A DNA stretch of 64,000 nucleotides, from NCBI GenBank assembly GCA_029204225.1, contig CM055103.1:47360458-47424457 (forward strand), in the 5' to 3' direction. Positions within the stretch are counted from its first letter, which is position 1. Each line of letters opens with the position of its first letter. Positions 8,669-45,167 of the stretch are shown here, in pieces. Made by a program: the position numbers and the translations under genes. This stretch comes from Diphasiastrum complanatum. Taxonomy: Eukaryota; Streptophyta; Lycopodiopsida; Lycopodiales; Lycopodiaceae. The notes under the pieces were generated by a model. It saw nothing but the letters and a program-made list of their open reading frames with translations. It was not told the origin of the DNA and ran no database searches.

Positions 8669-9017
8669 GATATACATAACATTGTTCTATGCAAGTCCTA
8701 AACTGAACAGTTATTTGGTAAGCTATTGTGACAATTCTGAAAGATGATGTGTGTCTAGTAGATGAAGTTGAGTTGAAAATTGTGGTATAGTTCAAATCTC
8801 TTCGAATTGCCAAGGTTGTTAGATGTTTTTATTTTTTAAAGAATTTGCCAACATGCATGGAAAAGATGCTCAATCTTTTGAATTACCTTAATATATGACT
8901 GTAACACTACATGTAGGGATCAAGATGCCCTCTTCTTCTAGGAGGGATTTTCATTTTAAATAACCAATAATCAATCAAAATGAGTCATGTTTTGCTACAC
9001 AGTATACTTTTCCAAAT

Positions 9018-9195
9018 TCCACTATCAATTTGCCTGCCCAACGATAGATCTGAGTCCTGAGTGACAAGCAAACTACGTCTCTAGTGAGTCTGTCCTTCAG
9101 AATCGCTACATCTGCCCCCACATGCGTGACACCTCCTTAGTGTCTGATGATGCTACTATCCTTGCCTCTACCTAATTGCAAAGTAGCTCACTCAC
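9018..9195 (+). pseudogene. Older copia pol fragment, 5' of the nested insertion
   Basis: This stretch continues at 15099 after the younger copia element. Its partner on the right arm is uninterrupted (about 43960-44140, minus strand) and leads directly into copia RT/RNase H sequence. It therefore belongs to the spacer/RT region of an older copia copy that served as insertion target. No intact domain is encoded here. At 9017 the arm lacks about 340 bp that the right arm has. Confidence 0.6.
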
Positions 9196-9200
9196 AAATG
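9196..9200. repeat. Target-site duplication AAATG, left
   Basis: AAATG abuts the left LTR here and abuts the right LTR at 15094-15098. The inverted partner locus has a single copy (CATTT at 43956-43960) with continuous flanks on both sides, which proves the 5-bp duplication and both element ends. Confidence 0.9.
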
Positions 9201-9440
9201 AGTTAGAATTAAAGTAGAATCATTGTGCTACTGTACTGTGGGTCTTATCAGTTGATAAGGATCAGTTGGCCTTGTCATGAGGCAAGTCGACGGGACACGC
9301 GTCCCGCCAACGGCAACCTGGGTCATGCATGGGTTGCCTGAGTGAACAACTTTGCTATGTGAGCTTGTTGTGGAGAGTGTTTTTCTGTTTGTGTTACTGT
9401 GTAGCATGATCTGTGTTCCTGTGGAAAGCAAATTCTAAGT
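9201..9440 (+). repeat. 5' LTR of the copia element (240 bp)
   Basis: Starts AGTTAGAATT and ends AATTCTAAGT, followed directly by the PBS. It lacks the usual TG...CA ends; TTAGAATT/AATTCTAA is a perfect 8-bp inverted pair set two bases in from the ends. Compared with the 3' LTR it lacks about 35 bp after 'gtgaacaact' (near 9353). Many differences between the LTRs are C/T or G/A. Confidence 0.9.
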
Positions 9441-9453
9441 TGGTATCAGAGCC
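9441..9453 (+). other. Primer-binding site of the copia element
   Basis: TGGTATCAGAGCC follows the LTR end with no gap; it is complementary to the 3' end of plant initiator tRNA-Met and is the normal PBS of plant copia elements. Confidence 0.9.
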
Positions 9454-10717
9454 ATATAGGGACTGTACACAGTACAGCATCGCCGTTGAAGAGAGCTTCG
9501 GGAGAACTGTCTTATGAGAGTTCGGGGTTAACGGCGAGTTGAAGACGGAAAGAGAATCACTGGTGCATGGTTTTTTAGTTTATAGAGGCTTGCCAAGCTC
9601 AGCAGAGGGATTATTAGCCTGTGCATAGCATCAGACAGGGAGACATTTGGTGAAAAATTGACAATTTTGAAGCCAGTTGAAAATTGAAACCGGGTTTGGG
9701 GTTACGGTTTTTAATACATAACTGTTGATTTCTTCGCTATTTGTGCACCGTTTTGGATGCCGTTAGGACAAGAAGGAAGCTAATTACATTGTCAACCAGC
9801 CATGGAGATATTCTGAGGTTTATGTCAGAGATTTGTCTCCAGACAGTTAACCTAGCAGATTTGCAGTAAAAGGTGAAAAAAGTGACTTTGCCAAGTTGAG
9901 CTAAAATCACCGTTTCTCCACGGAAATTCATAATTGAACACTCTACAGACTTGGTATCAGTAGAGCGACCCTGCTCCAGGCCTCAGATCATGCTCAAATC
10001 GATCCAAAAACGAAATTGATCAAGCAAAAACCAGTTTGGGGAGGCGTGGCCGTAGACAGAGAGGAGCGTGGAGCTCACGCGCGACGAACGAGGCAGTAGC
10101 TTGGGGTTTTGAAGTGTCCAGCGGCTTCAAAAGTGTAGTTCGACGCACCGATCCAAGGAAGTCCACAAGATCATCTCCACAATGATCGACGGACAGGATT
10201 AATTGCATCTAGACCACAGAATTGAAACCTATCGTTGGATTTAACTGAAGTGGGCCCTGAAGAATTAAAGTGTATTTTGGCCTTCAATTTCATTAGAAAA
10301 TTTCATACTGAAAGTGGAGTTGGGTCCCTTCACAAGTGAAGAGTGAAGTTTCTTCAAGGTGAAGAAACAGTTAAAAAACAAAGAAAATCCCTATTTTTGG
10401 GTCCTTTGCCCATTTTGACCCAAACGAAGGGCACCCAGACTGTACCTGCAAGTACGGTACAACAAAGAAGAGTGATTACAGCGGAGAAATTGTTCGGAGT
10501 GCGCCAAAAGTGATTTCACCATTCCACTGGGCACGTAGTTGGGAGTTGACGACTGATTGCATTTCGGAAGGCGACGCCGATTTGGCTTTCAAATTGGTGA
10601 GAAAGTGGCAAGTAGCCTGGTTAGGGAAAAAGTGCAGGTCATTATTTTTAATTTCTGACATCACAGTTGGCCTCGGCATACTGCTTTTAGCCTACAACAG
10701 AAGTTTCAAGTAGGTTT
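9454..10717 (+). other. Copia leader (5' untranslated region), 1.26 kb
   Basis: Between PBS and the gag ATG. No ORF with motifs is present. The length is long for a copia leader. Short minus-strand frames inside it are without meaning. Confidence 0.7.
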
Positions 10718-11498
10718 GTGATGGCAAACATGGGAGAGTCCATTTTGAGTGAAAGTAGCAAATCGGACGGGATTTCCAACTATGCAGTGTGGAAACTCAA
10801 AATGAAAAACATACTGATGGAGAAAGACTTGTGGGAAGTCGTCACAGGTGATGAGAGAAGGCCGCAAGATGAAGCGGATATCAAAGTGGTTGACAAAAAG
10901 ATGAGGAAAGCTTTGACCTTCATTAACTTATCAGTGAAGGATCACATCATTACTCACATTTGTGATGCTGTTACACCCAGACAGGTATGGGATGTGCTAA
11001 AGGAGCAGTTCGAGATGTCAAATCCGTCAAGAATCATGTTTCTAAAGTCAAAGCTGAATAGTGCCCATATGGAACAAGGAGAGCACATTCAGACGTACAT
11101 GACCAAACTCAAGACAATGAGGGATGAACTGCATTCTATTGGTGAGCGCATACGTGATGTGGAGTTAGTGCACAATGCATTGTGTGGCATTGCAGAACCC
11201 TATCAGATGTTTGTGAGCGGAATAGCATCAAGAGAAAGATTGCCAACCTTTGATGAGCTCACAGGAATCTTGATGCAGGAAGAGCAATGACGCGAAATGG
11301 TGAAAGCTAGACGTCAAAATACTGATGATCAAGCACTTGCGACATGCCAAAAACAAGGCTAGAGCAAGGGCGAGAAGAAGTCTAAACAACAATATGCCAA
11401 GACTCGGTAGGATGAGAGATCTTCCAGTAAGACCAAGAAGAAAGGCAAGTGCTTCCATTGTGGTAAAAAGGGCCATTGGAAGAGTGAATGTCGCAAAT
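10718..11498 (+). pseudogene. Copia gag (capsid plus zinc knuckle)
   Basis: Gag builds the virus-like particle that packages element RNA. The first 190 codons are open: 'ISNYAVWKLKMKNIL' near residue 19 and a UBN2/gag-polypeptide fold pattern through 'PTFDELTGILMQEEQ'. The same frame then runs through TGA 11288, TAG 11360 and TAG 11408 to a CCHC zinc knuckle, CFHCGKKGHWKSEC, encoded at 11450-11491. All three stops could derive from CGA or CAG by single C-to-T changes, as expected for methylation decay. ATG 10718 is preferred to the adjacent 10721; the choice between them is uncertain. Confidence 0.9.
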
Positions 11499-11503
11499 TC
11501 CTA

Positions 11504-12052
11504 GTGGAACAAGGCAAAGAGAAACCAAAACAAGCAGGTAACCTTGTCAATGAGGGTGAGATTGAAGACTCTAGCATCTTCATATCTATGTTGTCATCTA
11601 ATCAAGATGATCAAGCGTGGTATATTGACTCGGGAGCCACAAGACACATGACAGGTAACAAGAATTGGTTCAGTAGCTTGAAAGTGTTGGATAATGGAAT
11701 GTCCGTTTCACAAGCAAATGGTGAGCTGAGCAAGATCAAGGGGATAGGCATTGTTTCAATCCAACTACCTGATGGCAAAAGCAGGATGATCAAGGAGGTA
11801 CTTTACGTACCAGGTTTGAAAAAAAATCTACTTTCTGTTGGAGTCATTGCTGATCAAAAGTTGAAAGTAGAATTAGCCCATGATCGTTGCTTTGTGAAAG
11901 ATGTGAAACAAAAGTTCAAAGTTATTGCGGATGGAGTAAGGGAGCCCAAAACAAAATTGTATAGGTTGAATGCTACAATCAAGGGAAACATGGACTTGTA
12001 TCATCCATTCCATCGCAAACTGAGTTGTGGCATAAGAGGCTTGGTCAGCTGA
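11504..12052 (+). pseudogene. Copia aspartic protease and pre-integrase region
   Basis: Same reading frame as gag. The protease active-site motif is 'WYIDSGATRHMTG' (near 11620-11655), the copia form of the D-[ST]-G triad, which matures the polyprotein. Downstream is the conserved 'EVLYVPGLKKNLLSVG' block. The pre-integrase HHCC region 'LYHPFHRKL' begins near 12000 but a frame change at about 12020 ends this frame at 12052. Confidence 0.9.
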
Positions 12053-12906
12053 ACTTGGGAAGCCTCATTTTGATGAGAAAACTGGAGATGGTAACATGAT
12101 TGCCTACCATAGAAGATCACTTGAAATCGATGTGCGAATCTTTTGTATATGGGAAGCAGCATCGAGAGAAGTTCAATAAAGGGGGTGTTGCAAGAGCAAA
12201 GAACATCCTACATTTAATCCACACAGATTTATGCGGGCCTGTGAGGACCATGTCCTTAAGTAAAGCCTTCTATTTCATGACCTTTATTGATGATATGTCA
12301 CGTAAGACGTGGATCTACTTCTTGAAGAAGAAATCAGATGCATTTGACAACTTCAAGAGCTTCAAAGCATTGGTCAAAAATCAGACAGGTAGGAAGATCA
12401 AAGTCCTAAGATCAGATAGTGGAGGTGAGTACAAGTCTAATGACTTCAATGATCTTTGTGATCAATGTGAGATTAAAAGACAATTTATGCAAGCTCTCAA
12501 TGGTGTAGCTGAGCGCAAGAATTGTACGATTGTGGACAGTGCCAGATCTATGCTAGCTGAGATGAAACTACCAAAAGATTTTTGGTCAGAAGCATGCAGT
12601 ACGGTAGCCTATCTTCAAAATAGAAGTCCTACCATTGCCATACCAAAGATTACACCTGAGAAAGCATTCACAAAGAAGAAGCCAAAGGCGAACCACTTGC
12701 AAATCTTTGGATGTAAGGCCTTTGTACACATTCCTAAGGAAGAGAGACGTAAACTTGATGTAAAAGCTATCAAGTGTATATTCCTAGGATATGATAATCG
12801 TGTGAAAGGCTATAGATGTTTTGATCTAGTGGAAAACAAAATCCATGTAAGTCGTGATGTTATCTTTGATGAATCCAAGATGTATGAAGACGAGGATACC
12901 ACCTGA
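12053..12906 (+). pseudogene. Copia integrase
   Basis: Open frame 12100-12906 (268 aa) encodes the integrase core: 'HTDLCGP' (Asp near residue 43), 'RSDSGGEY' (Asp near 105) and 'NGVAERKN' (Glu near 139). Between the second Asp and the Glu the usual TPYTPQQ-like block is shortened to 'FMQAL', a small deletion that likely inactivates it. The C-terminal copia signature 'KCIFLGYDNRVKGYRCFD' is intact. Integrase normally inserts the cDNA into the host chromosome. Confidence 0.92.
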
Positions 12907-13456
12907 TGATGATCTATTCATTGACCTTCCAAGTGATGAAAATCTCAAGATACTACTACTCAACCTCAAGAGACAAGTTGGAGAGGTAGGGACAAACATT
13001 TTGGTGCAAGAAGGATTGAAGTTGTAGGTGACAAACGCAAGAAGAAGGATGTACTGTGGGATACATTTTCACTAGGAAGCCGATCACCTGACAAGAAGCT
13101 CCCTAAGTGGTTTGAGAGATTGTTGGAGAGCCGCGATATGGATGACTTTCCAGGACCATCTAGCCAGGGAGAGCTACAAAGATCAACAAGAGAGAAGACA
13201 CAACCTGAAAGGTATGAAGCAAATTATTCAAAGCAAAGGACCTTCGACTTATGGTGAAGCGAAGGATGATGACATTTGGGTCAAGGCCATGGAAGAGGAG
13301 ATGGAGTCAATTGCTAAGCATAGCACATGGGATTTAGTAGACCCACCAATTGGCAAGAAACCCATTGGTTGCAAATGGATATACAGGACTAAGTATCATG
13401 CAGATAGAAGTATAGCAAAGCACAAGGCAAGATTGGTGATCAAAGGGTATGCATGA
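12907..13456 (+). pseudogene. Copia linker and reverse transcriptase N-part
   Basis: The 13112-13456 frame contains the start of the RVT_2 domain: 'WVKAMEEEMESI', 'TWDLVD', 'GCKWIYRTKY' and 'KARLVIKGYA'. It ends at a TGA where copia elements normally have Gln (GYAQ..GIDYEETFAPV). Two frame changes separate it from the flanking parts. Confidence 0.88.
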
Positions 13457-14402
13457 AGTAAAGGCATTGACTATGAGTAGACCTTTGCGCCAGTATGCAA
13501 GTGGAATACTACATCTACTTGTTTCTTTAGCTTCACATTTTGGTTGGCCTTTGCATTAGATGGATGTGAAATCTGCTTTTCTAAATGGTGAGTTAGAAGA
13601 AGAGGTGTTCATGGATCAACCTGAAGGCTTTGTAACAAAGGGACAGGAAAATAAAGTATGTCGCTTGAAGAAAGTGCTTTATGGTCTTAAACAAGCACCA
13701 CCTGCGTGGTATAGCCGGATTGATGCCTACTTTCGTTCAAAGGGGATGGTGAGAACACACTCTGATCCAAATCTATATGTCTTATGTTGTGATGATATGG
13801 TTGCTTTGATTGCTCTTTATGTTGATGACTTGATTATTACGAGAAATAATCAAGAGATGATAGATATGATCAAGAAAGACCTCATGGAACAATTCGAGAT
13901 GACAGATCTCAACCTGATGCATTATTGCCTTGGAGTAGAGGTGTGGCAAAAAGGACATGAAGTGGGTTTAACACAGGTGAAGTATGTCAAAGGGTTGCTG
14001 CACAAGTTTAGGTTGCAGGATTGCAAACTAGTAAACACTCCTATTGTACCAGGTAAAAAGCTCTCTAAGCTTGATGAGTCACAGTCATTGGATGCTACAC
14101 TGTATAGGCAGTTAGTAGGGAGCTTGATTTACCTTACCACGACTAGACCAAATATATGCTATGTTGTTGGCATTGTAAGTCACTTAATGGTAGCACCTAC
14201 GGAAATGCATTGGAAGGCAGCTAAACACATTTTGCGTTATGTGAAAGGCACTTCAGATTATGGCTTGATTTACAGGAAGCATGATGGTTTACCTGAGTTG
14301 TGTGGCTACGTGGATGCGGATTGGGGAGGTGACTATGTTGATCGTAGATCCACCACAGGGTATGTATTTCAGTTTTGTGGTAGTTGTTTTTTTCTGGTCT
14401 AG
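13457..14402 (+). pseudogene. Copia reverse transcriptase (palm) and RNase H start
   Basis: Frame 13560-14402 (280 aa) starts at '[12 protein letters not shown]' (usual copia context LDVKTAFLNG, so the ATG is internal, not a true start). It contains 'LYGLKQAP' and the catalytic 'YVDD' at about 13820-13830, then '[13 protein letters not shown]' and the RNase H Asp region 'YVDADWGGD'. It copies element RNA into cDNA. A frame change near 14395 splits off the end of RNase H. Confidence 0.93.
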
Positions 14403-14764
14403 TAAGAAGCAAAGTATAATTGCTCTTTCCACCAGCAGATTATAAGGAAATGTGTAGTGCAGCACATGAAGCTATATGGTTGAGACAAATCTTGGAAGAA
14501 GTTCGCATGAAGCAGAAAAATCCCATGACATTACATAGCGACAGTCAGAGTGGCATTCAGCTAGCAAAGAATCAAGTGTTCCATGCGAGAACCAAACACA
14601 TTGAGATTCAGTATCACTTTATACGTGAGAGGCTGTTGAGTCGTGAAATTCGTGTTGTTCATTGTAGCAGAGAAGAACAACTAGCTGATATTTTCACTAA
14701 GCCATTTGTTGGAGAAAAGTTTGATAAGTTTAGATCAAAGCCTTCTATATTTAAAGTTTGTTGA
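14403..14764 (+). pseudogene. Copia RNase H C-part
   Basis: Frame 14420-14764 shows the copia RNase H end: 'AAHEAIWLRQIL', 'LHSDSQSGIQLAKN', 'HARTKHIEIQYHFIRE' and 'ADIFTKPF'. The protein ends at TGA 14762-14764, 45 bp before the polypurine tract, which is the expected spacing. Confidence 0.92.
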
Positions 14765-14809
14765 CTTTAAAGCTATGTATATGACTGTATAAAAAGTAGA
14801 CTCTACTTT

Positions 14810-14818
14810 AAGGGAGAG
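14810..14818 (+). other. Polypurine tract of the copia element
   Basis: AAGGGAGAG lies directly before the 3' LTR start AGTTAG. It primes plus-strand DNA synthesis in LTR elements and independently fixes the LTR 5' end. Confidence 0.8.
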
Positions 14819-15093
14819 AGTTAGAATTAAAGTAGAAACACTGTGCTATTGTACTGTGGGTCCTATCAGTTGATAAGGATCAGTTGGCCTCGCCACGAGG
14901 CAAGTCGACGGGACATGCATCCCTCCAACGGCAACCTGGGTCATGCATGAGTTGCCTGAGTGAACAACTATATGTACAGTGTCATTTCATTTAGAGAAAG
15001 ATAGTTGCTATATGGGCTTGTTGTGGAGAGTGTTTTTTTGTCTGTGTTACTATGTAGCATGATCTGTGTTCCTGTGCAAAGCAAATTCTAAGT
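14819..15093 (+). repeat. 3' LTR of the copia element (275 bp)
   Basis: Starts AGTTAGAATT after the polypurine tract and ends AATTCTAAGT before the right AAATG copy (15094-15098). It is 35 bp longer than the 5' LTR around 14972-15007. Confidence 0.9.
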
Positions 15094-15098
15094 AAATG

Positions 15099-15730
15099 GA
15101 CCCATGCCTATGATTGTCGAAGGACCAGTGTCCTCAAACAAAGAAGAAAAAGAAACAAATGAGAGAATATCTTTATCAGTCGATTCTAGGATCTCTCATG
15201 TATGTAATGGTCTGCACCAGACCTGATTTCACTTTTGTAATAAGCTCACTAAGCCAATTCATGGTACCCTAGCATGATCCATTGGAAGGCTCTCATCAGA
15301 GTCATGAGGAATATTCGAACGACAAAAGACTTATGCATCGTTATGGATAAGTCAACAGTGACAAGCTCCACATACTCAATGGATACACAGACGCAAGCGG
15401 GGGCGAAGATGTAAATACTTGTAACTTCCACATCTAGATTTACATTCTTCCTCAACGGCGGTCCTATCATCTAGAATAGTCATAAGCAAACTTCTTTTGT
15501 TCTTCTTCTACAAAATTAGAGTCCATCGTTGCTTCTCAAGCCACTAAAGAAGCAGTATGGTTGAGAAATCTGTTATTATCAGACATTTGTCTGAAGCAAT
15601 ATGCTTTGACAATTCTATTATGTGATTATCAAAGTGCCATTGCCTCATCAGCCAACCCTAGATTTTATTCTACGATAAGCACATTGAGATTAATTATCAC
15701 TATTTCATGAGTAACAAGGAGGTAAGCTTA
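15099..15730 (+). pseudogene. Older copia RT end and RNase H remnant
   Basis: Continuation of the older copia copy into which the 9.2-15.1 kb element inserted. Frames read the copia block 'GSLMYVMVCTRPDFTF' near 15190-15240, then a decayed 'YTDAS'-type RNase H site and 'HIEINYHYFMSNKE'-like end near 15680-15720. Several stops and frame changes. The same remnant, uninterrupted, is on the right arm at about 43256-43956. Confidence 0.8.
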
Positions 15731-16161
15731 GAGTACTGTCATTTATTCTATCTCTCCCTAAATCCCATTGTTAATCTAGATGTATACATGTTGCTGCATA
15801 TTTACTCGTACTGTGGCACAGTTTGATTGAAGGCAGGTATCTACACGGTAGTAAAATCATCAAAGGCAGCCAAACTATTGATGAAGTCTGACCCAAATCG
15901 ACAAATTGTCGACTGACTTGTTGACGTATCACTCTAAATATAGCTAGTCACCTATAATAGCTATCTACTGCACTATGCAATTGTTTTGACAATGATAGTA
16001 GCCATGATCACCACTTGTCCAAGTAGGGGGAACCATGACTGTCGTCCACCTTAAATAGTGATAGCCATGATCCGGCACCAAGATCCATAGATGACATAAG
16101 CTCAACGTCTTCATACATTTGTGTGTATATATATATAAATATATAAATATATATATATATA
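15731..16161. other. No gene; flank between copia remnant and Helitron-like element
   Basis: Palindrome-arm DNA without coding motifs. Compared with the right arm (42771-43255) it lacks roughly 115 bp that holds repeated TCGATAGTT words. Ends in an A/T microsatellite (about 16128-16160), which is the insertion site of the next element. Confidence 0.5.
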
Positions 16162-16284
16162 CTAGTATAGAGTGCCCGTCGTTGACAGGGCAATGGACGG
16201 TCGATGACGTGGGCAGCCGACATGTGACCGCGATGATCTGGGTGACGGCCAGTTTAGGAGGAGAGCCGATGATCGTTGATGGGT

Positions 16285-16600
16285 GGCCGATGTGTGTGTG
16301 TGTGTGTATGTATGTGAGTGCTTGTGTTTATGTATGTGTGTATTCGTGAGAGTGCGTATATCTCTACATGCATGTGGGTAGTCTAGCATAGTGTGCCCGT
16401 CGATGGTAGGCGGCCGGCCGATGATGTGTGTGTGTGTGTGTGTGAATTTGTGTGTATGAGTGTGTGTGTGTGTATCTGGGTGTGTGGATTTGTGTGTATG
16501 ATTTGTGCTTGATGGTGTGTGTGATTTATGTGGTAGATGGTGTGTGTGTGTGTGTGGATCTGTGTGTATGAAATGTGTGTGTGTGTCTTATTTATGTGGC
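16285..16600. repeat. TG-rich microsatellite cluster
   Basis: Several (TG)n tracts with TATG and TTTG interruptions at about 16291-16335, 16423-16500 and 16535-16590. Open frames across these tracts on either strand are low-complexity Val/Cys or Thr/His runs and are not genes. Confidence 0.9.
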
Positions 16601-17081
16601 CAATGAAACAAATTGATCAAGCAAACTTGTGTAGCAAGAGAATAAAAAACTACAGAGCTAGGAAAAAAGAAAAAGAAAAAACCCTAGAGGTAAGAACAAA
16701 GGAAAACTTCTTGTCAAATTTTCATTTCAATTTAAATAAATAAAAAAATGTCTACTTCTAGATATTCAACTTCTACTATTTCCCACAGTCATTGCAAGGA
16801 TGAGATTAGCAGATATGCTCCTTCATAGAGCATGGATGCTAGACGGAAAAAACTTTGGGTAAAACTTTTTGTTCATGATTTATGGGTAGAACTTTGGTAA
16901 TTCAAAATAAATAAGAAAGTCATGTATGTTTATTTTTGATGGAATGGAGGCACCCCCTTGTTTTATATATTTATACACACACACACACATACACACACAC
17001 ACACACACATTTTAAGCTTCTTAATTTTTTTTTAGGGGCATGGAGGCACCTCCCTCCCTCTATGGGTGGTTGGTCAGCCTG

Positions 17082-17085
<4 letters not shown>

Positions 17086-17146
<61 letters not shown>
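17086..17146. repeat. (GA)n microsatellite, about 57 bp
   Basis: Uninterrupted GA dinucleotides. The right-arm partner at about 41826-41854 is only half as long, so the tract has changed length since duplication. Confidence 0.95.
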
Positions 17147-17148
<2 letters not shown>

Positions 17149-17237
17149 GGGGCCCGTGGGAGGGAGGGAAGGAGAAAAAGCACTCTAGACTCTATACTTC
17201 ATACAATATACCTCATCCACAAAAAGTTTTTTTATAT

Positions 17238-17289
17238 GAGTGTGTGTGTGTGTGTGTGTGCGCGCACACACACACACACACACACACAT
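17238..17289. repeat. (GT)n-CGCG-(CA)n perfect palindrome
   Basis: A (TG)n run, GCGCGC, then (AC)n, forming a symmetric inverted repeat of about 50 bp able to form a hairpin; alternating purine-pyrimidine throughout. The right arm has the same structure, expanded, at about 41660-41730. Confidence 0.9.
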
Positions 17290-17975
17290 TCGATGTATTG
17301 AGGAAAGCTCTCACACACATACAACGAACACGCACGCACACACACACATAGGCGCACACACACGCACGTGTGTTCCAAATCTCCCCCCCTCCTCCCCCTA
17401 TTTTTCTCTTTTTATTGTCTATTTTGCTTTCCTCACCCCATCATCCTCCTTTTTTTTCAACTGTGCATTTTTTGAGCATGGATAAAAGCTTGTGGGTAAT
17501 GATTTAGGAGTTAAAGCTAGTGAGTTTGGGCTTGTAGTTAAGCATTTCTGAAAATGGCGGGCCAAGATATGGATTTGAAGGATTGAAAAAAAAGAAAAAA
17601 CCAGTTTAAGGTAGTCAAGAAAATATCTATGTTTATGATTTATGGGTAAAACTTTGGTAATTCAAAATAAATAAGAAAGCCATGTAATGAAGATTATTGG
17701 CTAAAGTTTAAAGCTTAACTTCAAATCTTAACTTCAAACTTCAACCTTCAAACATTTGAATTTAGAGAAAAGTATTTGAATTTAGTGAGTGGGAGGGAGG
17801 GGTCGGGGAATCTTTTTGGGGCCACCCCTCAATGCACAAAATGTGCAGATGTATGGGGATATGCACTTTCCTCATACATGCATCTCCCTTATCATTTTTA
17901 GTTAAAAAAAAGCTCATGCATGGGTGAGGGGAGGAGGTTGCATGGGTGCACCCATACACATGCGCAAAAGTGTAC

Positions 17976-17978
17976 ATA

Positions 17979-18011
<33 letters not shown>
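17976..18011. repeat. (TA)n microsatellite
   Basis: About 30 bp of TA repeats at the outer edge of the Helitron-like element; the partner lies at about 40551-40582. Confidence 0.9.
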
Positions 18012-18014
<3 letters not shown>

Positions 18015-18147
18015 CAATCATCTCATAGTTGATGATGTTGTATCAAGCAAACCAGCATTCGGAATCAGATGGTCATTGTAATTAATCGGCAAACATTTTA
18101 GGTGTTATCACATTAATTAGGTTTAAATGGAGAACCCACAAATGATC

Positions 18148-23006: not shown

Positions 23007-23149
23007 GCTCGAACCAAATGTGGTCGTTGATCTCTGGGCCTAGAAATATAATGGTTAGGACTAATCCATAGGCTGAACCATATTCTTTAAGCAGCTATGC
23101 ACTATGGGCTGCTACTTCACCACCATTGTTGAACATGCGAATGCTAGAG

Positions 23150-30546: not shown

Positions 30547-30560
30547 CATTAACACTGATA

Positions 30561-32130: not shown

Positions 32131-32162
32131 TAAAACACAAACTAGGACCCTTGAAAAGCCAT

Positions 32163-35262: not shown

Positions 35263-36469
35263 CTATTTATTTATGCACTGTAATAAGAGTATCAGCCTCC
35301 TATTCAAATTTTCAGCAAGCAATCAAAGGTATTAGTTGCACCAACATCATGCTCATAGTAATCAATAGTGCTTCATAGAAGCCATACAAGTAGTAGCAAT
35401 ATGCTTATCATCCATGCACAGTACTAGTATCCTCATACACAACACATTATCATTGTCATACATTGAGTAATCATCAACCTCCAAGCCTACTAGTGTGGCA
35501 GTGGGCATTGCAGTAGGGCGGCCAACCACATTCTATCATGTATAGAATGAGTGATCAATATGCTATCCAAGCATATATCTCATAAGCACATGTACTTTCT
35601 CAAAAATCAGAAGTAAATGAATTGCTCAGTCGCGTTTCAGATATGCGGCCAGTAGCTACTCAAAAAGTGGTGCTATCATCTGTAAACAATCCATGTGTCT
35701 AATCGCGATGGTCTGGCCATCAGCGGTTTGTTGGCTATTATTCAACATGTCTGCCATTCAATGCTTAAAAGTGTGGTAAAAATCATCAATGAAAGCACAT
35801 ACATCAACGTTGAGCTACAATCATTGAGTTGATGTAGTATACCTACGATTTAGTATCCAACTCGCTAAAGGGGCAACGCCCAATTGTGATAAACTCCCAT
35901 GTATCTTTTGAATTCAGAAAGCTATGTAATCATGCATTATCATACGCTAAGTAAGCTTCAACATCAAGTGCTTATACAGTGCATAAAAACCTTTGCTATT
36001 TGAAAGATCATTTAGCTTCAAGCTTGTTCATACTCTTACCTTACTTTGTAGTATGCTTTCAGCTAATGTCCTTCACAAGCTTTGATCGTCAAGGTTGTAG
36101 TAGGTTGCAGTGGGAGAAGCATAGCGAGAGCAAAGGAAAGGCAGGAAAGAGAGAGGGAAAGAAGAAGGTGATTTAGGTTTGTGTGATCTTTCTTTATATA
36201 AAGAAGTCGGTACCTTTGAATGCACTAAGTGTTTGAAGATGCCCACCTTTTGATTGTTTCCCCATAATGTGCACAGATCCTAGCCGTTCAAAGGAAGGCA
36301 AGTTTCCCTCCAACAAGGCTTTTTAAAAAAGACTTCATAAGGGGTCTCATTACAAAGTTTGGTGAAGTAAAGCAAATTATTCAGTTTGGTATCATAAAGG
36401 AGGATCATTTCCATGTTGTTTTAAAGTGTATATGTCATGTAGCTATTATATAATATAGCCCATGAGGGG

Positions 36470-36501
<32 letters not shown>

Positions 36502-36504
36502 TCA

Positions 36505-37760
36505 AATGTAGTAGTAATATTTAAAAAATTTACATATTTTCCTTAATATCTTCATTTTTTATAGTTTAGTATTCAAGCGGATAAATTCATATAGAATTAT
36601 CATTGGTACGTGGTTGTTCCTAGTCTAGAAACAACAAAGCATCCGGATTATTAATAAAACATATATCATCTATGTACCGAAAGGTATTCTTGAAAGACTG
36701 CAGATAATTCAACCTACCAAGCTTGGCTAATCATTTCATAGATTGTATAATTTGTAGTAAGACAAATACCAATTACACCACGTGGGAGAACATGAGAAAC
36801 CCTCCATGGGTATCCCGCATACCTGCCTCCAAGTCTTATTTTCTATTCTAACTATGCAATTGTTAATTAGTGCATAATTCCACTGGCATAATTGCATTTT
36901 ATCAATACAACATTTATTTGTAGATTGGTTTTTCGACTTCCATTTAAATTCACTAGAACGTGGTCCGTGTTTGTATGCAAGTGTCTCATTCTTAGTGTAT
37001 TTGAAGGAATATACAATCATTTTACGTATTACCGGCTTTAAACCATCTTGGCCATTCAAAGGACTGTTTTCAGAACATTAAGATATATTGGTAGACCACA
37101 TAGATGTGATCATTCTTGGTACATTAAGGTAGAATTCAGTGGAAAAGTTGCATTGCCAAAAATAGGTTAGTATCCACATTTAGGATACTCTGATATGTAT
37201 ATGCCTATAGACCTGCTCCCTCCATGAGGAACGGAGGCAGCATGCTAAGAGCTCCTATAAGAAATGTGGCCACCTTAGAAAAATGACAATCATGTGCATT
37301 GGTAATCCATCTAAAAGAGATCTTATGTGCTTTAAAGGTACATAGAAGGAAAGGTAACTCCTCTTTTCCAAGTAGATTCTCTAGGATGTTCCTTGTAAAG
37401 GTTTGTTTTATGACATTCATTGCATTACTGGTAGTATTATTTTTCTCATCTAGAAAGGGGGCAAAATCTGGACTAGAAAGTCTTTCTAAAGCCAATTTCC
37501 TAACAAAATGAATATACATGAAGCCAAGATTATGTTGAGCTTTTTCAACTCTATTAACATACAAGTTTGTAGTATTCCAACTATGTTCATATGTGGCATC
37601 TTTTAACTTGTTACCAGTTAGACATCATCCATGTAGCCATTTGGCTTTCTTTAGAAAATTTGTAACATTAGATTTGCAAAGTAGGGCATGTATGATAATT
37701 GCCTCATTATCAATGGTCTGATATACGGGTAACAATTTAGCTAATTTTAACCATTCTTGA
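36505..37760 (-). pseudogene. Penelope-like retroelement copy B, RT region
   Basis: Minus-strand partner of copy A. It has 'LLCTFKAHKISFRWITNA' (37205-37564 frame), 'CGIPMEGFSCSP' (36736-37059 frame) and the catalytic 'FRYIDDICFINNPDALLFLD' near 36640-36682. Here the Asn-Pro after the catalytic block is kept, as in copy C. The C-terminal part present in copy A at 19830-20225 is deleted at about 36505, next to a (GA)n tract. Confidence 0.7.
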
Positions 37761-38990
37761 TTTCAGTGGCAACTTCATCTATGTTTGATTTTCAAATTGG
37801 GATATGATTAAGTCCTTTACTCAAATCATTTATTAAAGACTTGTTATTAACAATCTTGGTATTCATAGAAACCACATGCCCAAAATTCATAGAAACAAAA
37901 TCTTTGAAGCATTTTTTAACATCTATTGTAGTAGCGTAAATGCAGAAAATTTTGTTGTTACCTTGTCTAGTATTGCCTCTATTAGAGAAATATTTCTTAT
38001 TCTTGTTGTCGCTTCCTAACATGACTGAGCTTGGATTATTTAAATTGAAGGACCCTGACCTTTTGCTCATATTCTGGAAGTATTTGTCTTGCAAAGTGGA
38101 GAAATTGAGCTTTTACATAAGACGTTAAATTTCATGGATGTTCTCGACATCACCAAGGTTAGCTAGAAGTCTAGCAGTAGGATCATTCGTGAGTTCAATA
38201 GCGGCATCAATCATGTATTGTCTAATGTAAAGCTTTGAAAACATCTATTTTGGATTTGTGTAGCCACAGGAAAAAGACATTTATTTGGTTATGCAGGGAA
38301 GCACTAGGAAATAATTTATCAAAATTGTTCATCATAAACCATACGGCGTGGTTGAATCAAATAACGAAAGAATTATTTTTATCACCTCGTCTACATTTAA
38401 AAAAACGCCTTTTCCAATTCTAGATCCGAGCTTGATGTAAGTTCATTCTATTGAATCCTGTCTCAAAATGGCCTCTAGTTCTAGCCTAGGTATGCTCAAA
38501 AGGACATTTCAAAGGCTCAAATATATTCATCTTGATAGCAGTATAGAAGGAAATGGGAGTATTAAAAGTAGGATTTTTATGTAAAGCAGCTTGTTTGCAA
38601 GTCTAGACTTCCACATCAGTCAAATGGGCGAGAGTAATCCATAGTTCTATAGAAATCAGTGTAAAAAACTTAATAGAAGGGAGACTCCATAATTTGTAGG
38701 CAGTTTTGACAAATTTGAATTCGATAGTTTAATTGTGGACCAGTGGTACTTGGCAACTCTTAGCTTGAATAAACTCGAAGGAACATTGATTTACTTCACA
38801 AATTTTTTGTGACAAGGATTCTAGTTGTGAGGCACTTTCTTCATCAAGGTCATTGACAAAAATCAACGCGTGTGGAGAGAGAGGGGGGTTCGATGGGGAT
38901 AGAAATTTAAGAAGAAAAAGCACCATTTTTTTTTTCAAGACAAGCAAATATTTTTCGAATATGAGCATTACAAAATCTTTTCTCTTTCAC
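37761..38990 (-). pseudogene. Penelope-like retroelement copy B, N-terminal region
   Basis: Frame 37792-38094 contains 'LQDKYFQNMSKRSGSFNLNN'-type sequence, 'YATTIDVKKCFKDFVSMNFG' and 'LINDLSKGLNHIPI'. Frames at 38729-38990 give 'FVNDLDEESASQLESLSQKIC' and 'KRFCNAHIRKIFACLEKKNG', matching copy C. The segment upstream of 38185 exists only on this arm, so this is the longest copy of the family in the window. Confidence 0.65.
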
Positions 38991-38996
38991 GTGTGA

Positions 38997-39265
38997 AGGG
39001 AGATGGTAAGTCGAGTATGTCGATGTCGAGTATATACATGAGATATCGAAGTCGATGGAATGAAGTAAGTCAGGTACTTTGATGTTGAGCACTTCAATGT
39101 CGGGCACTTCGATGAAGTCTATGTCGATGGAGTCAGGTGTGTGAGTTGATGAAGAAGTCGAAGTCAATGGAGTTGAATGGAGTAAGTTGGTGAATATACA
39201 AGGGAAGTCGAAGTCGGACTTCATACTTCGGACTTCAAAGTCGATAGAGTCGGACTTTGACATAT
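38997..39265. repeat. GAAGTCGATG-type low-complexity repeat
   Basis: Irregular iterations of GTCGA, GAAGTCGAAGTC and CACTTCGATG over 270 bp. On the minus strand it gives a Ser/Asp/Ile-rich frame (39431-38907) that runs into the start of the Penelope-like N-region, so it may be a repetitive N-terminal coding part or 5' untranslated repeat. Confidence 0.7.
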
Positions 39266-40551
39266 TTTTAGGATGCTCATTATTGAATGAATTTGAGGCT
39301 AAGCATTGAAATCCAACAATACCAAGGATGATGGGTGCCCAATCTATGGTTAAAATGCTATGTAGTTGAAGCACATTTAAGCATGGCCAAACATTGCATA
39401 AAAGTTGCAAATTAATGTCACTTTTCTTCATGAGAAATCATAGAGAAAGGTTGATGGCCACAATGTGGGAGAATACCTACAAGACACCTTCTGACCAAAA
39501 GATGACGGGAGATGTTGGCGAACAGATGTCTCAGAGTAAAACATTTTATGTAGTCCCTGACAAGTCAAGACCAAACCTTTTGAACCCTTTTGTTATATAG
39601 CACAACAAGTTAAAGAAAAGCTGCATGAAATCTTGTAGTAAGGCAATAAAGAGACGCAAGTTTTAATATGCTTAGCTGTTACCTGCCACCATCCCACAAA
39701 ACAAAACTGCATGAGTTAGTATGTGAGAAAGACATGTTTTGTGGCTGAGCATCACTTGTTATCCATGTCCGAAACAAGATCCACTACATGACAACTTAAA
39801 TAGCATTTACGAATAATAGTCCAATCTTGTACACCAATACATTCTATAGCAATACGTTCTGTCCTGAAAAAGCCGTATAAGAGAAGAATCCATATTGATT
39901 AGCATAAAGGCAAGAAACCGTATATTATTCACCCAACATAGTATAGTAATTGAGAAAAAACTATAATCAATCACTTATAGTAGGATAGGTAGTACAAGGT
40001 ATCAGGACAGATCCATGCCATACTGATTTCTTAGGCCTCATAATTGCTCATATAAGTCTATGAACTACGGTATGTATTTAGGGAAACTCCATACCATTCA
40101 GACTACTTTGAACTAAAAACAACTCCCAATTATACAATTAATATGTTTCCAAAATTAAAAATAACAATATAATTCCGTTTCTTTTTTTTGATAAAAGGAA
40201 TCTATGATGCATTGGCTGAAAACAAAATTGTAAAACCTATCTCGAATATTAGCATTTAGTTTGCATTGTTTATGTGCAATTTGTACTAATTTGGCTCATT
40301 TTAATAGTACTTTGTGAAAAACAAATTCTTGGTTCAAAAACTCTAAAACATTTCGTCGCATACTCAAAACTAGCTCTTAGTTCTATAATGGCCGTGATGA
40401 TACGAAGAACATTCAATGGAGAGTCTAACTGTCCATCTAAACCTAATTGATGTGATAACACCTACAATGTTTGCCAATTAATTACAATGACCATCTGATT
40501 CCAAATGCTGGTTTGCTTGATACAACAACATCATCAACTATGAGATGATTG

Positions 40552-40560
<9 letters not shown>
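39266..40560. other. Right-arm DNA, no gene; includes part of repeat R1
   Basis: No coding motif. 39670-39810 matches 23300-23440 ('acctgccaccatcccaca', 'ttgttatccatgtc'), and 39985-40090 has R1-like words. 38185-40430 is missing from the left arm; pairing resumes at about 40430 and a (TA)n tract starts at 40551. Confidence 0.5.
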
Positions 40561-40582
<22 letters not shown>

Positions 40583-40585
<3 letters not shown>

Positions 40586-40958
40586 AACTTATGTACAGTT
40601 TTGCGCATGTGTATGGGTGCACCATGCATCTATCTCCTCTCACCTATGCATGAGCTTTTTCTAACTAAGATGCATGTATGGGGAAAAGGATGCATGGCCT
40701 TCCTCCCCATGCATGCATCTAAGGGGCCCACTCCAAATTCAAATTATCCTTTACCAACACACACAGTGTTTTGAAGTGCATGTACGTACTTTCATGGTGA
40801 AAGATGTTAAACAAATGAGACTTTCATTATCAAAAATTTGAAAGGTGCTCTAAGGATTTTTTAAATTATCAGCCTTTCCACGGGAAAGGTTGAAATAAAA
40901 ATGCATTTCTATGAAGATCGGCCTCCATTGCTCGTCAACGATGGGCACTCTTTACTAA
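40583..40958 (+). mobile_element. Short Helitron-like element (about 375 bp)
   Basis: Begins after a TA tract with 'TTTAAACTTATGTACA' and ends with a decayed hairpin (CTCGTCAACGATGGG), then CTAA followed by T at 40955-40959, again within TA repeats. Both ends match those of the adjacent longer element, so it looks like an internally deleted family member in tandem. The left arm lacks it. Confidence 0.55.
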
Positions 40959-40969
40959 TATATATATAT

Positions 40970-41659
40970 TTAAACTTATGTACACTTTTGCGCATGTGTA
41001 TGGGTGCACCCATGCATCCTCCTCCCCTCACCCATGCATGAGCTTTTTCTAACTAAAAATGATAAGGGGGATGCATGTATGGGGAAATTGCATATCCACA
41101 TACATTTGCACATTGTGTGCATTCGGAGGTGGGCCCTAAAAAGATTCCCCACCTCCTCCCTCTCACTCACTAAATTCAAATACTTTTCTCTAAATTCAAA
41201 TGTTTGAAGCTTGAAGTTTGAAGTTAAGATTTTTATTTTTTCACACACTTCAATGTGTTTTAATCTTTAGCAATAATCTTTATTACATGACTTTCTTATT
41301 TATTTTGAATTACCAAAGTTTTACCCATAAATCATGAACATAAATATTTTCTTGACTACCTTAAACTGGTTTTTTTTTTTCAATCCTTCAAATCCCTATC
41401 TTGGCCCGCCATTTTTAGAGATGTTTAACTACAAGCCCAAACTCACTAGCTTTAACTCCTAAATCGTTACCCACAAGCTTTTATCCATGGCTCAAAAAAT
41501 GCACAGTTGAAAAAAAAGGAGAAGGATGGGGTGAGGGGAGCAAAATAGACAATAAAAAGAGAAAAATAGGGGGGGGGGATTTGGAACACATGTGCACCTA
41601 TGTGTGTGTGCACACATGTTCGTTGTATGTGTGTGTGAGAGCTTTCCTCGATACATCGA

Positions 41660-41700
<41 letters not shown>

Positions 41701-41821
41701 TGCACACGCACACACACACACACACACACCCATATAAAAAACTTTTTGTGGATGAGATATATTGTATGAAGTATAGAGTCTCGAGTCCATTTTCTCCTTC
41801 TCTCCCTCCCACGGGCCCCAC

Positions 41822-41860
<39 letters not shown>

Positions 41861-42770
41861 CAGGCTGACCAACCACCCATAGAGGGAGGGAGGTGCCTCC
41901 ATGCCCCTAAAAAAAAATTAAGAAGGTTAAAATGTGTGTGTGTGTGTGTGTGTAAATATATAAAACAAGGGGGTGCCTCCATTCCATTAAAAATAAACAT
42001 ACATGGCTTTCTTATTTATTTTGAATTACCAAAGTTCTACCCATAAATCATGAACAAAAAATTTTACCCAAAAAGTTTTTTCTCCGTCTAGCATCTATGC
42101 TCTATGAAGGAGCATATCTGCTAATCTCATCCTTGCAATGATTGTGGGAAATAGTAGAAGTTGAGTATCTAGAACTAGATATTTTTTTATTTATTTAAAT
42201 TGAAATGAAAATTTGACAAGAAGTTTTCCTTTGTTCTTACCTCTGGGGTTTTTCCTTTTTCTTTTTTCCTAGCTCTGTAGTTTCTTATTCTCTTGCTACA
42301 CAAGTTTGCTTGATCAATTTGTTTCATTGGCCACATAAATCACACACACACATTTCATACACACAAATCCATACACACACACAAACACACACACACCATC
42401 GACTACATAAATCACACACACCATCAAGCACAAATCATACACACATCCACACACACAGATACCCACACACTCATACACAAATTCATACACACACACACAC
42501 ACACACACACATCAGCGGCCGGCCACCTACCATCGACGGGCACACTATGCTAGACTACCCACACGCATGCAGAGATATACGCACTCTCACGAATACACAC
42601 ATACATAAACTCATGCACTCACGTACATACACACACACACATCGGCCACCCATCAATGACCATCGGCTTTCCTCCTAAACTGGTCGTCACCCAGATCATC
42701 GTGGTCGCCTGTCGGCTGACCACACCGTCGACGGTCCATTGCCCCGTCAACGACGGGCACTCTATACTAG
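40970..42770 (+). mobile_element. Helitron-like non-autonomous element (partner of 16162-17985)
   Basis: The 3' end is textbook: perfect 6-bp-stem hairpin CCCGTCAACGACGGG at 42743-42757, nine bases, CTAG at 42767-42770, then T in a TA tract. The 5' part starts 'TTTAAACTTATGTACAC'. A second 3'-end-like block, CGACGGGCACACTATGCTAG, ends at 42553, suggesting a nested or duplicated terminus. No proteins are encoded; frames crossing the microsatellites are artefacts. Confidence 0.6.
41660..41730. repeat. Expanded (TG)n/(CA)n palindrome
   Basis: Right-arm version of 17238-17289: about 36 bp of TG, a GCGCGTGCACACGC centre and a CA tract. It is longer and slightly less perfect than the left copy. 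Confidence 0.9.
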
Positions 42771-43255
42771 TATATATATATATATTTATATATTTATATA
42801 TATATACACACAAATGTATGAAGACGTTGAGCTTATGTCATCTATGGATCTTGGTGCCTGATCATGGCTGTCACTATTTAAGGTGGACGATAGTCGTGGT
42901 TCTTGCTACTTCGACAAGTGGTGATCATGGCTACTATCATTGTCAAAAAAATTGCATAGTGCATTAGATAGCTATTATAGGTGACTAGCTATATTTAGAG
43001 TGATACGTCAACAAGTCAGTCGACAATTTGTCGATTCGAGTCAGAATCGCGTAGGCTGAAGTTGAGGATGACAAGGGTTCAGATGTTCGAGTTGATAGTT
43101 GTTCGAATTGAACGTTTGAGCACTTGTCGATAGTTGGTTGAATCAATACTTCATCGATAGTTAGTCCTTCATCAATAGTTTGGCTGCCTTTGATAGTTTG
43201 ACTACTGTGTAGATACCTGCCTTCAATCAAACTGTGCCACAGTGCGAGTAAATAT
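42771..43255. other. No gene; flank with spaced TCGATAGTT words
   Basis: Starts in an A/T microsatellite. Between 43090 and 43205 the word T(C)GATAGTT recurs five times at 18-40-bp spacing, resembling the repeated U3 motifs of plant LTRs; most of this array is missing on the left arm. No coding motif. Confidence 0.5.
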
Positions 43256-43955
43256 GCAGCAACACATATGAATCTAGATTAACAATGGGATTTAGGGAGA
43301 GAAAGAATAAATGACAGTGTTCTAAGCTTACCTCCTTGTTACTCATGAAATAGTGATATTTAATCTCAATGCGCTTACTCGTAGAATAAAATCTAGGGTT
43401 GGCTGATAAAGCAATGGTACTTTGATAATCACATAATATAATTGTCAAAGCATACTGCTTTAGACAAATGTTTGATAATAACAAATTTTCCAACCGTACT
43501 ACTTCTTTAGTGGCTTGAGAAGCAACGATAGACTCTAATTTTGTAGAAGAAGAACAATAGAAGTTTGCTTATGACTATTGTAGGTGATAGGACCGCCGTT
43601 GAGGAAGAATGTAAATCTAGATGTGGAAGTTACAAGTATTTACATCTTCGCCCCAACTTGCGTCTGTGTATCCATTGAGTATGTGGAGCTTGTCATTGTT
43701 GACTTCTCCATAATGATGCATAAGTCTTTTGTCATTCGAATATGCCTCATGACTCTGATGAGAGCCTTCCAATGGATCATGCCAGGGTACCATGAATTGG
43801 CTTAGTGAGCTTATTACAAAAGTGAAATCAGGCCTGGTGCAAACCATTACATACATGAGAGATCCTATAATCGATTGATAAATATATTCTCTCATTTGCT
43901 TCTTTTTCTGCTTTGTCTGAGGACACTGGTCCTTCGACAATCATAGGCATGGGTC
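43256..43955 (-). pseudogene. Older copia RT end and RNase H remnant, uninterrupted copy
   Basis: Minus strand encodes 'YQSIIGSLMYVMVCTRPDFT' (43880 region), 'GYTDASWGED' (RNase H Asp), then after frame changes 'KLESIVASQATKEVVRLENL', 'ILCDYQSTIALSANP' and 'KRIEIKYHYF', the standard copia RNase H blocks. The frame is better preserved than in the left arm. It is the pre-insertion state of the locus that received the 9.2-15.1 kb element. Confidence 0.85.
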
Positions 43956-43960
43956 CATTT
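43956..43960. other. Empty target site of the copia insertion
   Basis: CATTT (AAATG on the minus strand) is single copy here, with flanks continuous with both sides of the filled site at 9196 and 15098. Confidence 0.9.
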
Positions 43961-45167
43961 GTGAGTGAGCTACTTTGCGATTGGGTAGAGGCGAGGATAG
44001 TAGCATCATCAGACACTGAGGAGGTGTCACGCACGTGGGGGCAGATGTAGCAATTGTAAAGGACAGACTCACTGGAGATGTAGTTTGCTTGTCACTCAGG
44101 ACTCAAATCTATCGTTGGGCAGGCAAATTGATAGTGGACACATCCACGCTTCTTCATTCACATAAGACAACAGTTGAAAGCGTAGGTTCTCATATTGATT
44201 CGCTCAGGAACAATGTAGAGCACAAGTTGTGGTTGTTTACTCTATTGTTGCCAGTCAACTGGTGAATATGAACATTTCATATATTATTTTAACATCTCTC
44301 TCTTTCTCTTTCTCTCTAGAAATATTCTCTCTACTAGAATTCCTTGTTTTGGTCCCTCTAACACCTCCCTTTGTTGCATGAAGGCATATTACTTCAACAA
44401 TTGTACTCCATTGCATTAGAATGCAGGAAAATTGAAAAGAAATAAATTTTGTCATCTTTTGAGTAAGTTCACATTGAAGAATTTGGAAAAGTATATTGTG
44501 TAGCAAAACATGACTCATTTTGATTGATTATTGGTTATTTAAAATGAAAATCCCTCCTAGAAGAAGAGGGCATCTTGATCCCCACATGTAGTGTAACAGT
44601 CATATATTAAGGTAATTCAAAAGATTGAGCATCTTTTCCATGCATGTTGGCAAATTCTTTAAAAAATAAAAAAATCTAACAACCTTGGCAATTCGAAGAG
44701 ATTTGAACTATACCACAATTTTCAACTCAACTTCATCTACTAGACACACATCATCTTTGAGAATTGTCACAATAGCTTACCAAATAACTGTTTAGTTTAG
44801 GACTTGCATAGAACAATGTTATGTATATCTAGAAAGACGTCATTGCATAACTATGCAGTTGAGCATACAAAAATTATCTACTATGGCAAATATTAGGTGC
44901 CAGAAAGCATTGTTTGATGTGGATAGTGTGCTTGTTTTACAACTAAAGAATAATTTTGGGGATTGAAACTGCTGTTTGGCATCCATGTAGATTCATGCAA
45001 AGACAGTATGGCATCAATTATTAATGACTTCTAGCCACATATGAAGGTAGCAAAAATCCAAAGATTGAGCATTTGTTGATTTCTTTGTTGTTATTTGGTC
45101 GAACTTTTTCTTTGAAGCAAGAACAACCGTACAAGCTTGAAAGAGATTCAAAAGCTCAAAAGAGGAA
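43961..45167. other. Arm end and flank, no gene
   Basis: Up to 44838 pairs with 8669-9195, except about 340 bp (roughly 44140-44480) that the left arm has lost; this piece includes a CT-rich tract at 44289-44315. 44839-45167 is unpaired and without recognised motif. Confidence 0.5.

Follow-up and report, generated by a model that had tools for sequence, protein, structure and literature searches.

Segmental duplications, also called low-copy repeats, form clusters in plant and animal genomes. The locus described here resembles such clusters in that kilobase blocks of more than 90% identity, falling into several levels of similarity, lie in mixed orientation within one chromosome region. It differs from them in that the frames scanned yielded no recognisable host gene, all Pfam matches above the cutoff being transposon-derived. 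In a fold-back event, the two arms of an inverted duplication are copies of each other. Filler-DNA end joining, in turn, was reportedly described in plants by Gorbunova and Levy in 1997.

In filler-DNA end joining in plants (PMC8395108), as at our joint, one partner is truncated, DNA has been copied in from another part of the genome and the ends overlap by a few bases; unlike those joints, ours is an evolutionary joint of two repeat copies and not the product of an induced break or of transformation. Fold-back inverted duplications, as depicted in PMC3907307 and PMC10622511, likewise feature kilobase inverted arms and a spacer, whereas the arms reported here group with other copies and their joint links non-homologous ends.

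Inverted arms and their divergence

The window, i.e., the entire 64,000-nucleotide stretch that was analysed, corresponds to C12:47360458-47424457, and the host genome searched comprises 1.74 Gb. Self-BLAST of the window confirmed both the existence and the collinearity of the inverted arms (8662-27611 versus 44836-32168), the inner and outer arms forming one collinear homologous unit, as a sequence-only reading had suggested. Kilobase matches between the arms were obtained at E=0, far beyond chance. Inverted pairs were found at 8662-9019/44479-44836 (98.3% identity), 9018-9200/43956-44138, 15094-15886/43167-43960, 15887-17997/40958-43045, 18132-19828/36499-38196, 20228-21427/35276-36489, 24797-25042/34057-34302 and 25745-27611/32168-34057.

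The arms had been estimated to be about 97% identical; the identity measured over 8,491 aligned columns is 94.8% (K2P 0.0545). Among nine arm segments, the outermost 358 bp alone reaches 98.3%, and this greater likeness may possibly reflect a younger copy that both share, or local conversion. Nor do the arms share a single centre of symmetry near 29.9 kb, as the same reading had it. Pair midpoints shift from 26.6 to 29.9 kb: the outermost pairs are centred at about 26.6-26.7 kb, those in between at 28.2-29.5 kb and the inner ones at 29.5-29.9 kb. Because the order of the arms is collinear, this drift can be explained by large indels. The 5% divergence and the separate indels in each arm bear out the view of a real, aged structure that is no simple fold-back artefact.

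Elements and blocks present in one arm

The left arm carries a copia LTR retrotransposon (9201-15093, plus strand), the ends of which read AGTTAGAATT...AATTCTAAGT. Its LTRs (about 9201-9440 and 14819-15093), the 5-bp target site duplication (TSD) AAATG, a copia-type gag and an integrase located before the reverse transcriptase are all features of copia elements; the Pfam domains are Retrotran_gag_2, rve, SH3_retrovirus and RVT_2. The 5' LTR is followed by TGGTATCAGAGC, which we take to be PBS-like. The insertion is clean and private to the left arm, the empty site being preserved at 43956-43960 in the right arm. Between the two LTRs, 17 of 240 aligned columns differ, with 35 gap columns left out. 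This divergence is nominally higher than the 5.2% between the arms, yet the right arm lacks the element; the value runs against a simple clock, but the sites are few and little weight is given to it.

A Helitron-like copy, perhaps at 38197-40431, had been regarded as private. Within the pair, this 2.2-kb block does occur on the right only; however, parts of it recur in the copies L030 (98%) and L035/L036 (88%), and an open reading frame within it is matched 149 times across the genome. The simplest explanation is thus that the left arm has lost the block. A private Helitron insertion is not supported, as no other large block is confined to the right arm and this one is seen in further copies, the protein evidence consisting of Pfam scans.

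A left-arm block (21428-24796), in place of which the right arm has 34303-35275, had been read as a later replacement. This simple account does not hold, as the first kilobase of the block is present in L035/L036 and in a copy located at -204 kb relative to the window; it is therefore more likely that the right-hand lineage is the changed one.

A degenerate reverse-transcriptase-like element is located at 18414-20253 on the plus strand, and its right-arm counterpart, on the minus strand, lacks 399 bp. Dispersed genome copies are 72-84% identical to it, several of them ending at query position 2122, which corresponds to 20253, and a longer relative gave a weak RVT_1 match (E 3.2e-05, below Pfam's cutoff). 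On the basis of its motifs, the element may be Penelope-like. Penelope-like elements feature a telomerase-related reverse transcriptase, with or without a GIY-YIG endonuclease. The one PDB match of the relative was weak (E 0.82) and unrelated. GH113 and mannanase matches in 19150-19704, as well as VtrC and FecR_C matches, were weak or below cutoff and were judged to be due to chance. An Asp_protease_2 match in 53637-54851 was also weak or below cutoff, and no Rfam matches were found in the window at gathering thresholds.

A cluster of duplicated blocks on C12

The duplicated block, about 13-20 kb long, is present in at least 12 copies over 1.17 Mb, in both orientations. In a search in which the best 40 of 1,819 candidates were considered, the outer marker (8662-9019) was found at 12 or more places, all in C12:46.36-47.53 Mb. 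Of the marker copies listed, eight lie on the plus and four on the minus strand, and 7 of 11 neighbouring pairs are inverted versus about 5.3 expected for random order, which is no clear excess. The blocks measure at least 1 kb and are at least 90% identical in several copies, as is typical of segmental duplications. The copies are local rather than genome-wide, all marker places listed being on C12; internal pieces of the unit are also dispersed genome-wide, as transposons are.

Similarity within the cluster falls at levels of about 99.5%, 97% and 95%. The stretch 8662-9204 is 99% identical to C12:46978057-46978599. The window also includes the end (1-8354) of a separate inverted duplication, 45 kb in length and 99.45% identical, the other arm of which lies 134-179 kb upstream. 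The cluster also contains a 10-kb run of N and further copies that are 99.8% identical over 23.6 kb. The pair is best filed as a member of an ordinary segmental-duplication cluster, mostly ordinary genome churn, the joint of which is unusually readable.

The arms belong to different lineages

Copies of the block fall into two lineages, referred to as L and R. In a tree of the inner segment (10 copies, 9 different), a 100/100 branch splits the left arm and four copies from the right arm and four others. The tree of segment 20567-21427 (9 copies, 8 of them different) also has a 100/100 branch, which separates the left arm and two copies from the right arm and five others. Neither tree has a root, and neither includes the copies at 46.35-46.88 and 47.05 Mb. 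In these trees of 10 and 9 copies, as in the identities, the arms are not each other's closest relatives. The left arm is 98% identical to C12:47174435-47176226 versus 93-95% to the right arm. The right arm is 98% identical to two pieces at C12:47052264-47054083 versus 95% to the left arm, and 97% identical to four full copies. Both arms also occur singly elsewhere. Over 18132-21427, some copies that resemble the L type in other segments (46.987, 47.063 and 47.426 Mb) are 93-96% identical to the left arm, which is no more than the right arm shares with it; unit copies may, on this pattern, be mosaics. The DNA compared contained no L-type sibling for segments 18293-19827 and 15094-15886, where the left arm stands alone beside R copies.

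The left arm (8662-27781, plus strand) is an L-type copy, about 13 kb long without the copia element, that is cut off at 27781. The other L-type copies (4/4 read) run beyond 27785 into shared sequence that the window lacks. The right arm and its extension (30649-45528, plus strand) form an R-type copy, of which 32168-44836 pairs with the left arm, and 30649-32167 and 44837-45528 are common to R-type copies.

The intervening region is not the 4.5-kb unpaired core that had been proposed, as most of it, by coordinates, is part of the right-hand unit, to which the 345-bp joint is added. The inner end of this unit (28125-30560, plus strand) is 98% identical to C12:47055585-47058009, which by coordinates is collinear with a right-type copy. 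The 1,501 bp between that stretch and the R copy agree with the spacing here, which is about 1,505 bp once a SINE-like insert is subtracted; by coordinates, 28125-30560 would thus belong to the right-hand unit. No unduplicated spacer was found, as 28125-30560 recurs beside a right-type copy and 27782-28126 matches a repeat on C8. All four R copies read extend past about 30372 into sequence that the window lacks. The 92-bp insert (30557-30648), flanked by the 10-bp TSD CATTAACACT, is missing from the right-type copies (4/4 read); its tRNA-like boxes lead us to assume that it is a SINE.

A probable filler of 345 bp at the joint

The joint (27782-28126) is a 345-bp filler that is 100% identical, with 0 differences, to C8:14773557-14773901, a stretch from the interior of a dispersed repeat. 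Neither a TSD nor a terminal inverted repeat was found at 27782-28126, and the ends of the joint overlap their partners by about 1-3 bp, as judged by eye. Among 38 other places listed for the filler family (best 40 of 736 candidates), 29 feature two parts about 115-130 bp apart, 8 have just the first of these parts, and a single one (C13, 82%) extends over 385 bp; among the family places listed, the unbroken 345-bp match is confined to the window and C8. One of the two C8 flanks directly adjoins the same segment in family members on C13, C3, C1647 and C438; the C8 copy thus sits within the repeat, and the window has a bare fragment.

A fragment that matches elsewhere and has neither TSD nor element ends is characteristic of filler DNA, the comparison resting on one of two C8 flanks, and the joint looks like templated filler from break repair. 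Its structure suggests an origin at a double-strand break. The perfect match to C8 implies that the joint, or the last repair there, would be far younger than the 5% divergence of the arms.

Origin of the inverted pair

Most probably, an L copy and an R copy of the clustered block came to lie face to face and were joined late by filler repair. Confidence in this account is tempered by the 93-96% copies over 18132-21427 and by the chance expectation for inverted neighbours. A block in which the coding domains recognised are those of transposable elements only has been copied locally in both orientations, its copies splitting into lineages about 5% apart. The window arms are one copy of each lineage, head to head. 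At a double-strand break or a stalled fork, the truncated L copy may have been joined to the inner end of the R copy, the repair using as template 345 bp of a repeat that lies on another chromosome. The joining would have occurred long after L and R diverged.

It is unlikely that the pair is instead one ancient inverted duplication with a longer spacer, the arms of which seeded further copies before a deletion and the filler produced today's joint; the filler would then date the later deletion only. Such an origin would fit the collinearity of the arms from end to end, as well as the midpoint-rooted tree, in which the deepest branch parts L from R. However, L and R copies are found apart from each other in the DNA compared, direct and inverted marker neighbours are mixed, the window's junction is absent from all siblings examined (four L, four R), and no second L-filler-R joint was found among the genome matches listed. 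Of the single inverted duplication originally proposed, the collinear inverted unit stands; its simple origin around a 4.5-kb core is not supported, given the grouping of the arms with other copies, the placement of most of the core in the right-hand unit and a joint made of a 345-bp insert that does not differ from its C8 counterpart.

It is rather improbable that the cluster repeatedly builds inverted neighbours by template-switching repair, the filler of this joint coming from another chromosome, as inverted neighbours show no clear excess (7/11) and one joint was read. The joint is known from one assembly, and very similar copies of 45 and 23.6 kb (99.45% and 99.8%, respectively), together with the 10-kb run of N, mark the cluster as a place where assemblers fail. 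An artefact in which haplotypes or chimeric reads were joined in inverted orientation is nevertheless very unlikely, since the arms differ by 5%, carry separate insertions with TSDs and have distinct flanks, and a 345-bp filler is not the usual look of a misjoin between repeats. A single large foldback-type transposon with long terminal inverted repeats would account for the long inverted arms, but is hardly credible, as no TSD or direct repeat was found at 8661/44837 (judged by eye), right-type copies continue beyond 44836 to 45528, and the arms occur singly elsewhere.

Implications

A convincing palindrome can consist of two old paralogues that were recently joined, and dating the arms does not date the palindrome. 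As the filler matches C8 perfectly, the joint has a clock of its own. Perfectly complementary runs between the inverted neighbours reach 229 bases, and hairpin RNA could possibly arise from the arms; such a transcript, if any, would be a by-product of a pair without demonstrated function. Inverted neighbours with long complementary runs could give rise to small-RNA silencing and to new rearrangements. Should fillers also be present at other joints of the cluster, these would document how break-induced or microhomology-mediated replication makes palindromes from old repeats in nature.

Pairing and identity of the arms

Self-BLAST of the window recovered, nearly at the positions proposed by the sequence-only reading, a left arm (8662-27781) and a right arm (32168-44836, with an extension to 45528) that lie face to face. 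From the outside to the inside, the inverted pairs, all of which are collinear, are 8662-9019/44479-44836, 9018-9200/43956-44138, 15094-17997/40958-43960, 18132-19828/36499-38196, 20228-21427/35276-36489, 24797-25042/34057-34302 and 25745-27611/32168-34057. Pair midpoints shift along the series, with the outermost at 26.6 kb and the innermost at 29.9 kb, and the arms therefore lack the near-common symmetry centre attributed to them. Arm-to-arm identity is 94.8% over 8,491 columns in nine aligned segments (305 transitions, 139 transversions, K2P 0.0545); the earlier estimate of about 97% is reached in only one of the nine, the outermost 358 bp (98.3%).

The longest run of perfect complementarity between the arms is 229 bases, and runs 40 bases or longer number 54 and, simple repeats included, total 3,539 bases. 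A hairpin transcript is a possible candidate product of the arms, and would cross a 4.5 kb spacer. Pfam scans of 10, 10, 4 and 10 frames, a part of those present from which short frames were left out, gave above the cutoff only transposon-derived domains, plus DUF4219 alongside the copia gag.

Two lineages of the repeated block

The arms belong to different lineages of a block repeated in a cluster of segmental duplications on contig C12, left-type (L) and right-type (R). In a midpoint-rooted maximum likelihood tree of the inner segment (ten copies, nine different), one 100/100 branch has the left arm with four copies on one side and the right arm with four others on the opposite side. In a second tree, built on 20567-21427 (nine copies, eight different), a 100/100 branch separates the left arm and the copies at -185 kb and +65 kb from the window start from the right arm and five others. 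Both trees cover copies other than those at 47.05, 46.88, 46.80 and 46.38 Mb, among others.

Elsewhere, the left arm is 98% identical to L006, another C12 copy, over 25396-27785. Its outer end (8662-9204) is 99% identical to C12:46978057-46978599; a 340-bp stretch present in the right arm is missing both there and in the left arm. The right arm over 37410-40939 is 98.5% identical to L030 (C12:47045318-47048845). For 18293-19827 and 15094-15886, the right arm shares 98-99% identity with other R copies; the left arm is more distant, at approximately 95%, with no L-type sibling found in the 294 kb compared (six copies per segment). A whole-genome search with 18132-21427 of the left arm found C12:47174435-47176226 at 98% identity, and right-type copies at 93-95%. 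Further copies (46.987, 47.063 and 47.426 Mb) are just 93-96% identical to the left arm in this stretch, and the comparison therefore favours the view that copies may be mosaics.

Core and joint between the arms

The 4.5-kb core, which the sequence-only reading left unpaired, is probably not a loop. Most of it (28125-30560) is 98% identical to C12:47055585-47058009, which lies beside a right-type copy. The right-type pieces at C12:47052264-47054083 are on the same strand as this match, and the gap between them is 1,501 bp, which agrees with the distance in the window, 1,505 bp once a 92-bp insert and its 10-bp duplication are taken out. Because of this match and spacing, most of the core would belong to a right-type unit, as its inner end, judging by coordinates and identities. 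Segment 30649-32167 is common to four R copies; past the insert, all four match 175 bp more, to approximately 30372, beyond which they enter sequence missing from the window. The 92-bp insert (30557-30648), which we take to be tRNA-like or SINE-like, has a 10-bp TSD and is absent in four right-type copies. Beyond 27785, all four L copies compared (L006, L008 and those at -70 kb and +71 kb) run into common sequence missing from the window.

Between the cut-off L copy and the R unit stand 345 bp (27782-28126) that are 100% identical to C8:14773557-14773901. Among the matches listed (best 40 of 736 candidates scored), the unbroken fragment occurs only in the window and on C8. The 38 other family places show 82-93% identity; two fragment parts lie approximately 115-130 bp apart in 29 of them, the first part stands alone in eight, and one (C13, 82%) covers 385 bp. 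In a search with one C8 flank (best 40 of 392 candidates scored), 100 bases of the flank directly adjoin the same segment in C13, C3, C1647 and C438 members; since they do, the C8 copy appears to sit inside the repeat, the window holding a bare fragment. By eye, the C8 flank presumably resembles a retroelement gag; Pfam gave no match on 33 residues of it.

Neither a TSD nor a terminal inverted repeat was found at the joint, the edges of which overlap neighbouring sequence by approximately 1-3 bp (by eye). No differences from C8 are seen, where a divergence of 5.2%, as between the arms, would give approximately 18; provided that rates are alike, the L/R split would therefore be far older than the joint, or at least than its most recent repair. 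In plants, end joining is known to leave filler taken from other genome regions (PMC8395108).

Duplications in the C12 neighbourhood

The genome searched comprised 1.74 Gb in 5,176 contigs, and the window occupies C12:47360458-47424457. With the inner right arm (32168-34057) as query, many copies were found in C12:46.38-47.43 Mb in both orientations. The best non-self matches were the two adjoining pieces at C12:47052264-47054083 (98%), followed by four full-length copies at 97% and the left arm at 95%; pieces of the query also match other genome regions at 82-92%. The outer marker (8662-9019, query 7900-9205) occurs in at least 12 places, both arms included, among the matches listed (best 40 of 1,819 candidates scored, so that counts are lower bounds). 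All lie within C12:46361869-47526831, eight on the plus and four on the minus strand, and in 7 of the 11 pairs of neighbours the two copies face opposite ways (approximately 5.3 in random order).

The 294 kb compared around the window include 10 kb of N (exactly 10,000, at C12:47226458-47236457, mid-cluster). Right-type copies here match the right arm at approximately 96-97.6% identity; for left-type copies and the left arm, the range is approximately 95-98%. A 23.6-kb direct duplication (99.8%) and a 45-kb inverted duplication (99.45%; -179223 to -134000 versus -36906 to 8354, relative to the window start) were also identified. The latter is larger and more alike than the window's arm pair; one of its arms ends within the window (1-8354), and the other (C12:47181234-47226457) stops at the N run. 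Position 8662 is flanked by sequences, to the left (up to 8664) and right (from 8662), that each have numerous copies in the cluster, but their junction, with a 3-bp overlap, occurs only in the window among the matches listed; 8662 is likely another breakpoint. A tandem array (25-bp unit, 10.3 copies) lies at 50095-50351.

Mobile elements and other differences between the arms

The private copia insertion noticed earlier in the left arm (9201-15093) was borne out by a 5-bp TSD and an empty site in the right arm, and features gag, integrase and RVT_2 matches. Its coding region is broken across several frames. It ends in AGTTAG...CTAAGT; the usual ends of such elements are TG...CA.

Parts of a right-only 2.2 kb (38197-40431) recur in three other copies (L030, L035 and L036), and its ORF belongs to a dispersed family (149 genome matches); because of this, the simplest account of its absence would be that the left arm lost it. 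The left block (21428-24796) has its first kilobase in common with L035, L036 and the -204 kb copy, and the sequence that the right arm has instead (34303-35275) is common to right-type copies. The left-only 399 bp (19829-20227) fall within an old reverse-transcriptase-like element widespread in the genome, and since they belong to it, the right arm has lost them.

The reverse-transcriptase-like domain spans 18414-20253 (+), with a right-arm counterpart within 36499-38196 (-). It has at least 150 genome matches (best 150 of 2,849 candidates), some with frames exceeding 500 aa, and one relative gave a weak RVT_1 match. Its motifs may be Penelope-like. Penelope-like elements are described as patchy in plants, with Selaginella and conifers named (PMC9033089). 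A plant rich in such elements would merit separate study.
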